IMG/VR virus record: IMGVR_UViG_3300003322_000406 | Span: 1-47,348 of that record | Direction: 5' to 3' (one strand) | DNA from: a virus | Length of the DNA stretch: 47,348 nt | Program-made: the position numbers and the translations under genes | The notes under the pieces: model-generated | What the model saw: only the letters and a program-made list of their open reading frames with translations | What the model was told of the DNA's origin: nothing | The model's database searches: none | Part shown: one piece after another, positions 7,475-28,315 of the stretch | How the letters are laid out: every line of letters starts with the position of its first letter | Numbering within the stretch: the stretch's first letter is position 1

Positions 7475-7754
7475 CGTTCAGGTATTGCATTGCATATTTA
7501 AATCCGGCGCATGGTTGCGGGTTAGCCTGGTCGCCCATGTGGCAAAGGAAGGTGCCGTAATAGGCTATACATTCCACGGCCTGCCGTATGTTTTCTTCGT
7601 CCAGGTTGGCCTCTGTGCCTGGCCGGAAGGCACACCCTGAACACATTTTGCCGCACTCACCCAGCCCCGCGCCCGCGCGTGCTACTTCCACCACCCAGGT
7701 GGACCAGTTTACCGGCTCCTTTGGCTTTAATATGGGCGGGTATTTAATCGGCAT
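7461..7754 (-). CDS. Cysteine-rich small protein between terminase genes (97 aa)
   Basis: The gene overlaps both its neighbours, terS by 11 bases and terL by 14, so translation is coupled. The product has a dense cysteine pattern: GECGKMCSGCAFRPG near residues 33-47, then ECIAYYGTFLCHMG, then PCAGF. Six cysteines and one histidine could bind zinc or an iron-sulphur cluster. No family is recognised. Its place between the terminase subunits suggests a packaging accessory factor, but this rests on position only. Confidence 0.8.
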   Translation of the reverse strand: MPIKYPPILKPKEPVNWSTWVVEVARAGAGLGECGKMCSGCAFRPGTEANLDEENIRQAVECIAYYGTFLCHMGDQANPQPCAGFKYAMQYLNDAGQ

Positions 7755-8364
7755 TTTGCTGGGTTATGATCTGCGGCGCCGCGCTGGTTTCCCTGGTCTT
7801 AAACACCACCCGGCGTATTACGGTGGTGCTGGTGCTGTTGTTGTTGGTATTGTTCACCTGGACGGCTACCTGCGGAACCTCAATACCCAGGATTTTGCAC
7901 CGCATTTCAACGCACCACTGGATCCCGCGCAGGTACTGCGGGTCGCCCGCTCCCTGCTTATGGTCTTCCTTCACCTGGGCCACGGCCATGCGTCCGCCTT
8001 CGTCGCCCTTCTTTTTGGTTTTGCTGGTGTTCTTCACTATCTCGCAGGAACGGCGCCACGCGTCCCAGTACGTCGTTTCCAGGGCGTTTATTTTAGCCAG
8101 CTCGATAGCCTTGTGATTGTCCACTAACTGGCTTTTATGTTCCTTCCATTCGTCGATGGCTTCGTTAACATATTTCGCCACGGTGTGCCTGGTGAAGTTG
8201 TGGCCGCCGGTTTGTTCCCTTGCCAGTTCAGCGACCTGGGCCTGGGTATGGCCTTGCAGGTATAGGCTAACAATTAAATTTTTCCACCCTTCCACGCGTG
8301 CCTTAGCCGGGGTAAGTGTGGGTTTTCCACCGCTTTTTGTTTTCGGGTTTCGGTTTCCTTTCAT
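7744..8364 (-). CDS. terS: Terminase small subunit-like DNA-binding protein (206 aa)
   Basis: Start at ATG 8364 (MKGNRNPK); ten upstream codons lie over the terminator and are excluded. A helix-turn-helix is visible at about residues 30-75 (LQGHTQAQVAELAREQ then FTRHTVAKYVNEA), with basic flanks. The middle is helical and charged; the C-terminus is rich in Asn, Thr and Ser. Size, HTH and position one gene upstream of terL fit a terminase small subunit, which recognises the packaging site and forms the recognition ring. It is the first gene after a strong terminator, yet no clear -7 promoter was found upstream. Confidence 0.7.
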   Translation of the reverse strand: MKGNRNPKTKSGGKPTLTPAKARVEGWKNLIVSLYLQGHTQAQVAELAREQTGGHNFTRHTVAKYVNEAIDEWKEHKSQLVDNHKAIELAKINALETTYWDAWRRSCEIVKNTSKTKKKGDEGGRMAVAQVKEDHKQGAGDPQYLRGIQWCVEMRCKILGIEVPQVAVQVNNTNNNSTSTTVIRRVVFKTRETSAAPQIITQQNAD

Positions 8365-8383
8365 TTTCCTTTCAGTTTTGCGA

Positions 8384-8426
8384 CAAAAAAACACGGGTAG
8401 CGGTTTTGCCGATCGCTGCCCGTGTT
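8384..8426 (-). terminator. Strong intrinsic terminator between early and packaging genes
   Basis: A 13-bp stem with one wobble (8414-8426 with 8390-8402) and an 11-base loop is followed on the minus strand by seven T. It lies downstream of the gene ending at 8472 and directly upstream of the small terminase, separating the early region from the late region. Confidence 0.8.
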
Positions 8427-10198: not shown

Positions 10199-10200
10199 GT

Positions 10201-10211
10201 GTAACGATTTT
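10201..10211 (-). promoter_or_regulatory. Early leader motif AATCGTTAC, copy 1
   Basis: The minus strand reads AAAATCGTTAC, two bases before the ATG at 10198. One of eight near-identical leaders in front of early genes. Confidence 0.75.
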
Positions 10212-10914: not shown

Positions 10915-10916
10915 TT

Positions 10917-10927
10917 GTAACGATTTT
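10917..10927 (-). promoter_or_regulatory. Early leader motif AATCGTTAC, copy 2
   Basis: The minus strand reads AAAATCGTTAC, two bases before the ATG at 10914. It overlaps the stop region of the helicase gene. Confidence 0.75.
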
Positions 10928-12125: not shown

Positions 12126-12390
12126 TGGCAGGCGTTTGGGCTGGGTTATACCATAGGTTTACTTCGTTGCTGAACGCCTTACGATCGCGGCGCCATAGCG
12201 TGTCCAGGCGGTTAAATTCGCGGGTTATGATAGGCTGCGTTTCCCTGGTTGCTTCGCCCAGTTGGGCCTGCAGCCGCGCCTGGATAATGCCGCGCATGTT
12301 CTGCCAGTCGTTTAAACAGGTGTTACAAAGGGCCTGCCCTACCGGCGCGGCCTTTTTACAGTGGTTACATTCGTGTGTTTGTTCTGCCAT
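12112..12390 (-). CDS. Small zinc-finger protein (92 aa)
   Basis: Start at ATG 12390 (MAEQTHECNHC). The N-terminus carries a C-x2-C ... C-x2-C zinc finger (CNHCKKAAP, then LCNTC) within residues 8-30. A helical, Arg-rich C-terminal part follows. The end overlaps the helicase start by 14 bases, which suggests coupled synthesis and perhaps a helicase partner or DNA-binding adaptor. No family is recognised. Confidence 0.75.
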   Translation of the reverse strand: MAEQTHECNHCKKAAPVGQALCNTCLNDWQNMRGIIQARLQAQLGEATRETQPIITREFNRLDTLWRRDRKAFSNEVNLWYNPAQTPANGNN

Positions 12391-12409
12391 AAAGTAACAA
12401 TTTTGAGGT

Positions 12410-13967: not shown

Positions 13968-14244
13968 GTTGTAACGATTTTGAAGTTTCGGCGGCCTGCG
14001 CGGCCTCCATAAAAATTTTTAAGTCCTGTAAAGAAAGGTAAGCCAAAACATACAACCGGTTAAAAGGGTCGGCGTGGTGCGCTTTCATTCGTGCTACTTG
14101 TGTGGAATAATATTTATCTGTGTCTATGATCGTGGCCCAGGCTTTCAGCTTTACCGGTGGCTTTGGTAATGGCTTACCTTCAAACCAGGCCAGCATGGTG
14201 GCGCCTTTGGCTTGTAAGGCGGCCACCTTTTCCTCCCTGGTCAT
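13954..14244 (-). CDS. Hypothetical protein (96 aa)
   Basis: Start ATG overlaps the stop of the HNH gene by four bases. The protein has a helical N-terminus (MTREEKVAALQAKG), a Pro-rich hinge (KPLPKPPVK) and a helical C-terminal half (LYVLAYLSLQDLKIFME). No family is recognised. It is part of a tightly coupled group with the HNH protein and the exonuclease. Confidence 0.75.
   Translation of the reverse strand: MTREEKVAALQAKGATMLAWFEGKPLPKPPVKLKAWATIIDTDKYYSTQVARMKAHHADPFNRLYVLAYLSLQDLKIFMEAAQAAETSKSLQHGKQ
13971..13981 (-). promoter_or_regulatory. Early leader motif AATCGTTAC, copy 3
   Basis: AAAATCGTTAC on the minus strand, three bases before the ATG at 13967, inside the end of the 96-aa gene. 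Confidence 0.75.
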
Positions 14245-18114: not shown

Positions 18115-18116
18115 TT

Positions 18117-18127
18117 GTAACGATTTT
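18117..18127 (-). promoter_or_regulatory. Early leader motif AATCGTTAC, copy 4
   Basis: AAAATCGTTAC on the minus strand, two bases before the ATG at 18114. Confidence 0.75.
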
Positions 18128-18147: not shown

Positions 18148-18178
18148 CAAATATAATAATTCCGAAACAATACCGAAA
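18148..18178 (-). promoter_or_regulatory. Promoter of the coiled-coil unit
   Basis: -7 element TATATTTG (18155-18148) with TTTC (18178-18175) exactly 19 bases upstream, matching the Bacteroidota promoter layout. The -33 lies within the operator element 18160-18186. Confidence 0.6.
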
Positions 18179-18186
18179 TATTTTTA
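18160..18186 (-). promoter_or_regulatory. Operator-like element, copy a
   Basis: The minus strand contains TTTCGGTATTGTTTCGGAA, two TTTCGG boxes 11 bp apart. All 27 bases of 18160-18186 recur exactly at 28308-28334. It covers the -33 and spacer, so a bound protein would block or recruit RNA polymerase. It extends three bases into the 3' end of the 163-aa gene. Confidence 0.65.
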
Positions 18187-18675
18187 TACTATTTTAGAAA
18201 TTGCGGCCAGCAAAATGCGGGCAGCTTGCCTGGGTGCCAGGCCGCGGCCCTGCACGGAAACGCCGCAGCCTTTGAAGTTTACAAACACCACAATACTGCC
18301 GGTGGCGGTTTCGGACGTGGGGAAGTCTTCGCGGAAGGTTTGGGGTATTTCGCTGGTGGTTGCGTGTTCGCGGATCTGTTCCTGGGTCATTACGCCGCGT
18401 TTTGGTTCGGGCTGCTGTAATGTCCGGCCCAGGTCGAACAGTGGCACCTGGGCGCCTGGTGCCAGGCTTCGCCCGGCTCGTTTTGCGCCTTTCCTGGGGT
18501 TTTTCTGTGTGTAGGGTTCCTTTGTGTATTTAACAGCGCCTATTTGGCTGCGGCGCTCCCGTACGGCGTTTTCCGTACGGTTTAGTAACCGGCCTATTTT
18601 GGCGTCGGTCTTACCTTCTTTCCAAAGGGTTTTTAGTGCTGCGTCGTCCACTGGGGACCAGGTTTTTGCTTTCAT
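18184..18675 (-). CDS. Myb/SANT-like HTH DNA-binding protein (163 aa)
   Basis: The N-terminal 45 residues match a Myb/SANT-like or GcrA-like HTH: WSPVDDAALKTLWKEGKTDAKIG, LLNRTENAVRERRSQIG (quoted in parts), with the expected Trp/Leu/aromatic pattern. The middle is basic (KNPRKGAKRAG) and disordered. The C-terminal 50 residues contain GSIVVFVNFKGCGVSV, which looks like a beta-strand domain. A DNA-binding regulatory role is plausible. The ATG is directly joined to a copy of the leader motif. Confidence 0.7.
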   Translation of the reverse strand: MKAKTWSPVDDAALKTLWKEGKTDAKIGRLLNRTENAVRERRSQIGAVKYTKEPYTQKNPRKGAKRAGRSLAPGAQVPLFDLGRTLQQPEPKRGVMTQEQIREHATTSEIPQTFREDFPTSETATGSIVVFVNFKGCGVSVQGRGLAPRQAARILLAAISKIV

Positions 18676-18686
18676 GTAACGATTTT
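18676..18686 (-). promoter_or_regulatory. Early leader motif AATCGTTAC, copy 5
   Basis: AAAATCGTTAC ends directly at the ATG of the 163-aa gene (18675), with no spacer, the tightest of the eight copies. Confidence 0.75.
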
Positions 18687-19865: not shown

Positions 19866-20733
19866 TTTTCAGTTGGGTTATGATGTTTTGAATGTTGCTA
19901 TTTATGTCCAGTAACCGGGTTTTACCCTGCAAAAAATTATCCAGGCGGTGCCAGTTGTCCAAAACGTACTGCCACGATTCCAGGGCCTTGCTGTCGGTAC
20001 CCGCTTCGTCCAGTATGTGGCCGCTGGCCTTTGCTTTCTGCCCGGCAATGTTCCGAAAATACGTTATAAGTGATTTTGCAGCGTTGCCGTTGCCGTTGTT
20101 ATATTGCGGCGGCACGCCGTCGTGCAGCTTTTTAAACCACCGGTCGTAAATGTCAATAAATCGCTGGTAGGTTGTGGCCGGTTTTTCGCCCTGGGGGGGC
20201 GCCGCGGAACCAGGGGGGGCTTCTTCCGGCTTTGCCGGTTGATCATTACCTGGAAGACTACCAGGCGAACCGCCTCCAGGCGGTACCTGTTCCTGGTTAG
20301 TACTTTGTTTTTTAGTACTTGTTCCCTTAGTACTTTTTTTCTTAGTACTTAGTAGTGGGCGGGTTTCCTGCTGCTGGGTTTCCGGCGGCCGGGTTTCCGC
20401 CTGTCGGGAACCCGTCGCCTGGTTTTCCGCAACTTTTGGCGGGCAGTCATATACAATATAGCGGATTTCCCCAAACTTTCCACCTTCGCCCCGTGGTTCC
20501 CGTTCGGTCTTTATGAACCCTTTTTGTTCCAGTTCTGCCCATGCTGTTTTGATGGCGTCCCGGCCTTCCTTCATGTTTTCGTATAGCCAGTTTTTATATA
20601 ACACCCAGTCGTCCGGCAGGTGCAGCACGTAGGTAAGCAGCCCAATGGCTCGAAGGGATAAGTTAGAGTTAAACACCACGTTGGGAATGATGGTAAACCC
20701 TTTTTCGGCCTTAATTCTGATTATTCTGTTCAT
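19756..20733 (-). CDS. Winged-helix replication initiator (325 aa)
   Basis: Residues 1-80 form a winged-helix domain typical of phage replication initiators or DnaD-like proteins: FTIIPNVVFNSNLSLRAIGLL, LPDDWVLYKNWLYENM and AWAELEQKGFIKTE are the helices and wing. A long disordered linker (about residues 95-190, Gln/Pro/Thr-rich, with repeated STKxx) precedes a helical C-terminal domain (RFIDIYDRWFKKLHDG to DNFLQGK). The linker is encoded by four DNA iterons (20297-20350), the organisation of lambda O and its origin. It probably binds the origin and recruits the host helicase. The leader is long (about 80 bases) with a hairpin and T run. Confidence 0.78.
   Translation of the reverse strand: MNRIIRIKAEKGFTIIPNVVFNSNLSLRAIGLLTYVLHLPDDWVLYKNWLYENMKEGRDAIKTAWAELEQKGFIKTEREPRGEGGKFGEIRYIVYDCPPKVAENQATGSRQAETRPPETQQQETRPLLSTKKKSTKGTSTKKQSTNQEQVPPGGGSPGSLPGNDQPAKPEEAPPGSAAPPQGEKPATTYQRFIDIYDRWFKKLHDGVPPQYNNGNGNAAKSLITYFRNIAGQKAKASGHILDEAGTDSKALESWQYVLDNWHRLDNFLQGKTRLLDINSNIQNIITQLKNGHSKNKQSGQPTGGQVSTASLAGAIAKHYTGTGSA
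20297..20350 (-). repeat. Four iterons (TTAGTACTT, 15-bp period) inside the initiator gene: candidate origin
   Basis: Exact 9-bp TTAGTACTT occurs at 20297, 20312, 20327 and 20342, spacing 15, 15 and 15 bases. Each contains the palindrome AGTACT. The intervening bases are A/T rich. In the protein they read as repeated S-T-K. Iterons with dyad symmetry in the linker of the initiator gene, next to A/T-rich sequence, is the layout of lambda ori. Confidence 0.75.
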
Positions 20734-20747
20734 TAGGGGTAGAAAAG

Positions 20748-20776
20748 AAAAAACCGCCTCGGAGTGGGCCGTGCGG
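20748..20776 (-). terminator. Leader hairpin with T run ahead of the initiator (attenuator or sRNA terminator)
   Basis: On the minus strand CCGC-A-CGG pairs with CCG-AG-GCGG around a 6-base loop, followed by six T (20753-20748). It lies between the promoter (20820-20827) and the ATG at 20733, so transcripts either stop here or read through into the initiator. Confidence 0.55.
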
Positions 20777-20793
20777 GGCCGTCGTCCAAAACG

Positions 20794-20808
20794 GTTAAAT
20801 CGTTACAT
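20794..20808 (-). promoter_or_regulatory. Reverse-complement copy of the early leader motif
   Basis: On the minus strand the leader reads AATGTAACGATTTAA, so that TGTAACGATTT is exactly complementary to the AAATCGTTACA leader of early mRNAs. It also contains the minimal start-stop ATG-TAA. It is the only copy in this orientation. Confidence 0.55.
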
Positions 20809-20819
20809 TTAAAGCCTCA

Positions 20820-20827
20820 CAAATATA
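20820..20827 (-). promoter_or_regulatory. Candidate -7 promoter element of the initiator leader
   Basis: TATATTTG on the minus strand, matching TAnnTTTG, 87 bases before the initiator ATG. No good -33 TTTG is visible, so strength is uncertain. Confidence 0.45.
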
Positions 20828-20875
20828 ATACCCGCACGCATTACATTCGCGGTAGTGTAAACGAAAGTAGGTAAT

Positions 20876-21892: not shown

Positions 21893-21898
21893 TTGCTT

Positions 21899-21909
21899 GT
21901 AACGATTTG
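21899..21909 (-). promoter_or_regulatory. Early leader motif AATCGTTAC, copy 6
   Basis: CAAATCGTTAC, six bases before the ATG at 21892. Confidence 0.7.
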
Positions 21910-25671: not shown

Positions 25672-25672
25672 T

Positions 25673-25683
25673 GTAACGATTGC
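25673..25683 (-). promoter_or_regulatory. Early leader motif AATCGTTAC, copy 7
   Basis: GCAATCGTTAC, one base before the ATG at 25671. Confidence 0.65.
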
Positions 25684-27757: not shown

Positions 27758-28267
27758 TTAGTCCATTAAACCGGTTAATAATGCGCGGGTATGCTCTTTT
27801 TCAACTTCGGGCAGGCTGGTAAGGTCTGCGTTTGTACATTGGAAAACCTGCCCATTGCTTAGAACTATGTAGCGGCCCAGGCAACTGTCCACCCATACAT
27901 TGCCTGTATGCGCTTGCATGTGGAAATAACCGGCGCGGCCGCACCATTCTGCGTCCCGGTTAGTACAACGCGTTTCTTTTTCAACCCGGTATTTTTGGGC
28001 TGTCCGGGCCAGGTGATCGTTCATTTCTTCCAGGCTGAAAAACTGCATGTTTAAAAATTTTGGTAAGTCAAAGCCCAACACGTCGAACATTATGCCGGGG
28101 TCGTCATTCCACTGAAGCAATAGCTGGGCTATCATTTTTTTAACGCCGTCGGTGGTCGGTTCCTTAACTACGTTTTCAATCCCGGCGCCCCATATACTAT
28201 TCAGTTTCGCGGTTGCCTTTATGCGCTCAAATACCTGCGCTTCCAGGTCGGATAATTGGTTTGTCAT
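27758..28267 (-). CDS. Early protein with cysteine-histidine motif, first gene of its unit (169 aa)
   Basis: Start at ATG 28267 (MTNQLSDLE), after the early leader motif. The N-terminal 90 residues are helical. The C-terminal part has CTNRDAEWCGRAGYFHM and WVDSCLGRYIVLSNGQVFQC, a likely zinc site. It is separated from the methyltransferase by three bases and may be its partner or an independent early protein. No family is recognised. Confidence 0.75.
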   Translation of the reverse strand: MTNQLSDLEAQVFERIKATAKLNSIWGAGIENVVKEPTTDGVKKMIAQLLLQWNDDPGIMFDVLGFDLPKFLNMQFFSLEEMNDHLARTAQKYRVEKETRCTNRDAEWCGRAGYFHMQAHTGNVWVDSCLGRYIVLSNGQVFQCTNADLTSLPEVEKEHTRALLTGLMD

Positions 28268-28269
28268 TT

Positions 28270-28280
28270 GTAACGATTTG
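28270..28280 (-). promoter_or_regulatory. Early leader motif AATCGTTAC, copy 8
   Basis: CAAATCGTTAC, two bases before the ATG at 28267, only three bases downstream of the -7 element. Confidence 0.75.
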
Positions 28281-28283
28281 TCA

Positions 28284-28315
28284 CAAATATACACGTTTTA
28301 GAAACATTTCCGAAA
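28284..28315 (-). promoter_or_regulatory. Promoter of the first early unit
   Basis: -7 TATATTTG (28291-28284) with TTTC (28315-28312) 20 bases upstream, overlapped by operator copy d. Confidence 0.58.

Follow-up and report, generated by a model that had tools for sequence, protein, structure and literature searches.

Phage P4 makes a small RNA, CI RNA, from a leader of replication genes, and this RNA base-pairs with phage leader sequences; it terminates the transcription of its own operon, serves prophage immunity and is not known to address a shared start-codon motif. Other short phage antisense RNAs, the c4 RNA of P1 and P7 and the sar RNA of P22, block translation initiation on phage mRNA, and the target described for them is the antirepressor mRNA (PMC12197685). 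IsrK of the Gifsy-1 prophage is a terminated short RNA that shares one promoter with a read-through mRNA and acts in trans, activating the translation of that same mRNA (PMC4825925). In Bacteroides thetaiotaomicron, whose genus is not known to have an obvious homologue of Hfq or ProQ, the host metabolic sRNA GibS uses its 5' region to base-pair around the start codons of the mRNAs that it represses, two of which have been demonstrated as targets (PMC7366714). Finally, the T4 protein RegA represses about 30 mRNAs by occupying their start region, which makes the control of many phage mRNA start regions by one factor a real phage strategy (PMC3014915).

The locus that we compare with these systems is the leader of the replication initiator gene in a phage represented by a virus record of 47,348 bases, the whole of which was analysed and is referred to here as the window. 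On our reading this leader would yield a trans-acting RNA with a 5' seed at start codons in a Bacteroidota host, a likeness to GibS, which in contrast is not a phage leader and has no shared start-site motif (PMC7366714). Unlike the c4 and sar RNAs, it would face at least nine starts sharing one motif (PMC12197685); unlike IsrK, it would be a regulon-wide early repressor (PMC4825925); and the factor would be an RNA where RegA is a protein (PMC3014915).

Almost all genes of the window lie on the minus strand, as do all the features described below. The host group was inferred to be Bacteroidota from the TATATTTG promoters, whose six exact copies in the window are all on the minus strand and for which the consensus TAnnTTTG has been reported (PMC7366714). 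In the initiator leader, a Bacteroidota-type -7 element TATATTTG (20820–20827) is followed by a putative antisense seed TGTAACGATTT (20797–20807; UGUAACGAUUU as RNA) that is complementary to a motif at early start sites. The seed adjoins the 5' base of a predicted hairpin, H2 (20752–20796), made of a 12-bp outer stem, an internal loop, a 4-bp inner stem and a 6-nt loop CCGCAC. A U6 tract (20748–20753) is the predicted 3' end of a short RNA, as terminator or attenuator. Hairpin and U-tract end 14 nt upstream of the initiator ATG at 20733; the gene behind the leader (P0001, 19756–20733) has matches to replication initiation families (PHROG 428/186/4707) and to DnaD-like proteins in its N-terminal part. 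No match at the Rfam gathering score was obtained in the window, and a tRNA scan was also empty. An initial annotation of this DNA had proposed the same layout, and its promoter, complementary stretch, hairpin and U6 are indeed all present; the RNA, which it put at about 65 nt, is predicted here to be about 70 nt long (69–71 nt).

The motif AAATCGTTACA, or a version of it matching at 10 of 11 positions, precedes by 0–6 nt the start codons of eight minus-strand early genes. These starts are at 28267 (motif at 28269–28279; first early gene, 169 aa, with a promoter at 28284–28291), 25671 (25672–25682), 21892 (21898–21908; RecE/YqaJ-type exonuclease), 18675 (18675–18685; weak match to a D5-like transcriptional regulator, phrog_323), 18114 (18116–18126; 510 aa, promoter at 18148–18155), 13967 (13970–13980; 66 aa, the motif lying within the upstream ORF), 10914 (10916–10926; in the gap after a Dda-like helicase gene) and 10198 (10200–10210; 249 aa). 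Most copies have no promoter nearby and are found in short intergenic gaps or within the upstream gene, positions that suit a signal acting on mRNA better than an operator. With up to one mismatch allowed, the 11-mer was found 11 times in the window against 0.80 expected, a count reached in none of 100 shuffles. On the coding strand AATCGTTAC has eight copies, each of them at a start codon and with the motif ending 0–6 nt before the ATG, and the sole copy of AATCGTTAC in the opposite orientation is that of the initiator leader; likewise, the reverse complement of AAATCGTTACA occurs only once in the window, at 20797–20807. The exact complementarity to eight early mRNA leaders claimed in the initial annotation holds for seven of them, the eighth (25672–25682) matching at 10 of 11, and a ninth target had been missed, namely AAATTGTTAC (12394–12403, before the start at 12390), which forms one G.U pair with the seed. 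That the RNA could cover early start codons, as was also proposed, applies to some targets only: the 11-nt pairing core spans about -14 to -3, and pairing over the AUG is predicted for just a part of them.

The small protein with the weak D5-like regulator family match (18184–18675) bears the motif in both the window and one relative (L051, below), and in two others (L002 and L003/L010) the interval from the resolvase gene to the 18114-ortholog showed no counterpart of it. Elsewhere in the window, a protein encoded at 7744–8394 weakly matches a PHROG family named RNase E (phrog_645); an RNase factor encoded by the phage could be relevant to control through RNA. The sense motif at 20797 was also considered as part of the start region of a divergent plus-strand gene, a possibility rejected because no ATG follows within about 70 nt.

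Three other IMG/VR phages share the initiator. L002 (a 34.9-kb contig) and L003 (4.9 kb) were found via a neighbouring phrog_3657-type protein, L010 overlaps L003 at 100% identity and extends it, and L051 (a 48.2-kb contig) was found with a RecE alignment. The comparison set thus consists of four phages, two of which are incomplete (fragments). No further relatives came from an initiator alignment against IMG/VR, from initiator and RecE as single queries against viral contigs, or from alignments of both against GTDB genome contigs; INPHARED phages contained distant homologs only. A DNA pattern for the leader returned the same relatives and unrelated chance matches only, and a second pattern nothing new.

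A short RNA terminated within a leader calls for a promoter followed by a hairpin and U-tract ahead of the coding gene, and this layout is met in all four phages, where promoter, seed region, hairpin, a U-tract of 5–6 and the initiator ATG occur in the same order; the -7 element is kept in all four and the U-tract is at the same place. The sequence of H2 has changed among the phages while its pairing was preserved. More specifically, RNAalifold, run on an alignment that was imperfect, showed changes in both partners for 4 of 14 H2 pairs, and separate folds predicted outer stems of about 10–13 bp, 4-bp inner stems and 6-nt loops in each phage. In the window the seed overlaps AUGUAA (20803–20808), a start codon followed by a stop, where L002 has AUGUAAUGA; this start-stop was rejected as a leader peptide, being absent from the L003/L010 and L051 leaders.

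If the leader gives rise to an antisense RNA, its sequence and the motifs at the start sites should co-vary among related phages, and such co-change is seen in all three relatives. Along with the seed, which differs among the phages, the motif at the start codons has changed, from AAATCGTTACA in the window to AAATCATTACA in L002, AAAT(Y)CATTGCA in L003/L010 and AAATCGTTAC(C/A) in L051. In L002, the leader reads TGTAATGATTT and AAATCATTACA stands at both targets, the orthologs of RecE (start AAATCATTACATG) and of the 18114 gene (start AAATCATTACATTTTTATG). The same two orthologs are targets in L003/L010, where a leader TGCAATGGATTT faces AAATTCATTGCA at RecE (start site AAATTCATTGCATG, with one G.U) and AAATCATTGCA at the 18114-ortholog (start site AAATCATTGCATATTTATG). 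In L051, the leader GGTAACGA (CCATACGGTAACGAGTT) faces AAATCGTTACC at the 18675-ortholog (start site AAATCGTTACCAATG) and AAATCGTTACA at the 13967-ortholog (start site AAATCGTTACAGTATGG; 41% protein identity), its best target, with one leader base mismatched to both. Two targets were detectable per relative versus nine in the window, and the target proteins in the relatives are 41–75% identical to their counterparts in the window.

We ranked candidate starts by predicted pairing, with every leader segment trimmed in the same way, so that it began 6 nt past the promoter and ended at the hairpin base. With its own leader, each relative placed its targets high (ranks 1–2 of 230 candidate starts in L002, 1–2 of 55 in L003/L010, 1 and 7 of 405 in L051), and in the window eight of the nine targets were within the top ten of 334. 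Out of 1000 shuffled leaders, none matched the target sum in the window, L002 or L051, and one did so in L003/L010. Leaders swapped between phages were predicted to bind more weakly in most cases; for example, the window targets gave -2.6 to -8.1 kcal/mol with the L003 leader versus -10.2 to -14.9 kcal/mol with their own. The window leader also ranks the L051 targets 1–2, and co-change in L051 is therefore only partial. Complementarity to the target start regions is thus better than chance, and compensatory evolution of seed and target is seen in the relatives, in part only for L051. The ranks are not independent P values, because targets were chosen by the window motif and by complementarity, and because orthologs have a common ancestry. 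When untrimmed leaders were used with a fixed energy cut-off, there was no discrimination in the window and L051, apparently because GC-rich parts of the leader outside the seed dominated; the uniformly trimmed segments did discriminate. Pairing extended beyond the shared core was significant for one of 15 pairs, in L051, where it runs through the AUG (CCAUAC with GUAUGG; flanks that were shuffled did as well with P 0.003). Our main argument remains that seed and targets show matched changes; together with the conserved layout and the compensatory changes in the hairpin, they support the antisense RNA suggested by the initial annotation.

The same co-change would be expected if AAATCGTTACA were a DNA operator of a phage regulator, present in the opposite orientation in the initiator leader and co-evolving with its protein, which is close to the alternative that the initial annotation had itself raised, a DNA site used in both orientations. 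Two sites in the window (18116 and 28269) do lie just downstream of TATATTTG promoters, and all four phages encode the initiator, whose N-terminal part in the window matches DnaD-like and DNA-binding families. However, an operator should be placed relative to promoters, and this is not what we observe: all 15 sites are 0–6 nt from an ATG, many of them in intergenic gaps of 9–19 nt or inside an upstream ORF, and only four have a TAnnTTTG within about 60 nt, leaving 11 without. The pairing through the AUG in L051, the variable length of the L003/L010 sites (11 versus 12 nt) and the change at RecE that yields a G.U pair also speak against it, as does the persistence of the motif in L002 and L003/L010, in whose syntenic stretch the 18675 regulator was not found. 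Because the motif tracks start codons, mostly promoterless and inside operons, and not promoters, we regard a co-evolving operator as unlikely.

Pairing might also work in the reverse direction, abundant early mRNAs binding the initiator leader and altering its termination or translation, so that the initiator senses early transcripts. The abutment of the seed on the 5' base of the hairpin and the end of hairpin and U-tract 14 nt before the initiator ATG would suit such a role, and the Gifsy-1 leader RNA IsrK acts on its own read-through mRNA (PMC4825925). Yet the targets share only the complement of the seed, with no stretch that could invade a hairpin arm, and a motif at the start codon of each early gene is something that control of their translation requires and sensing does not; we consider this direction quite improbable. 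That the motif is merely a protein-bound or ribosome-favoured early translation signal, A-rich and close to the start codon like the start regions of Bacteroidota (PMC7366714), and the leader match a chance or neutral inverted copy, is hardly credible given the single antisense copy in 47 kb, located exactly between promoter and terminator, and given that seed and targets co-change in three relatives with target proteins 41–75% identical to those of the window.

We therefore favour the antisense RNA: a trans-acting RNA of about 70 nt, derived from the initiator leader, likely pairs with a shared early regulon and probably represses it, although no transcript data are available. Transcription from TATATTTG (20820–20827) would stop at the hairpin and U6 tract (20748–20753) and leave a short RNA that has a seed with little structure, UGUAACGAUUU, at its 5' end and the terminator hairpin at its 3' end, which is the anatomy of small regulatory RNAs. 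On nine early mRNAs the seed would pair with AAAUCGUUACA, at positions of about -14 to -3 and in some cases as far as the AUG, and would block 30S binding at these starts. To our knowledge, Bacteroidota are a phylum without classical Shine-Dalgarno sequences. Repression is inferred to be the likelier sign, since pairing at -14 to -3 in the absence of a classical Shine-Dalgarno sequence most simply blocks initiation. Read-through from the same promoter would give the initiator mRNA, and the initiator promoter would in this way turn early genes down while turning replication on; it is by position alone that the RNA is tied to replication initiation, as the leader of the initiator gene. A cis-encoded antisense RNA of the lambda OOP type would lie opposite its target, which is not the case here, as the targets are elsewhere on the same coding strand. 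Seed-target pairing has strong support from the compared sequences, while the short RNA itself, its end at the hairpin, repression as its sign and its timing are inferred without expression data.

A second predicted hairpin, H1 (20818–20851), spans the promoter just upstream of the seed, and the 6 nt of its loop, GUGCGG, form an exact complement of the H2 loop. The two loop sequences are exactly complementary over 6 nt in all four phages: the pair is GUGCGG/CCGCAC in the window, L002 and L003, and AGGCCG/CGGCCU in L051, which differs in both loops. In the window and L051 this hexamer makes up exactly the predicted H1 loop; the fold is shifted slightly in L002 and L003. These two phages also carry, further upstream, a match to the 3' arm of H2, AACCGCTTT. 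H1 is missing from an RNA that starts at TATATTTG, and contact between the loops would then need an upstream transcript or action in trans; alternatively, the true transcript start may be upstream of H1. H1 and H2 could form a kissing-loop switch, and a DNA inverted repeat is not excluded. Tentatively, one may imagine a switch with two modes, in which H1 on RecE read-through transcripts kisses H2 and alters termination, while the RNA from the internal promoter, lacking H1, ends as the antisense RNA and shuts down an early regulon barcoded at its start sites; it would be an RNA counterpart of T4 RegA, but we hold it as no more than a possibility.

In L035/L036, which is more distantly related, the leader hairpin is similar and no seed-target pairing is detectable, so that the antisense element is limited, so far, to phages that carry this initiator. 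The L035 leader, from the RecE stop at about 5178 to an initiator-like ORF, contains a hairpin and U6, with a loop CCCUAAU complementary to an upstream AUUAGGG; no start-codon motif was detectable for it. A search of more distant relatives for enriched start-site 9-mers with antisense partners gave nothing comparable to the window. In the literature searched, which left most subscription papers and preprints outside its coverage, no such multi-target phage antisense RNA has been reported.

If the antisense reading is true, an early gene set of this phage would be marked by one short start-codon sequence and controlled by one RNA that comes from the leader of the replication gene itself, a job comparable to the one that T4 does via the protein RegA. 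The host phylum would be one in which Bacteroides has no obvious Hfq or ProQ. Such a phage would contain an RNA regulon of its own, with a co-evolving address code whose targets may be predicted from sequence alone.
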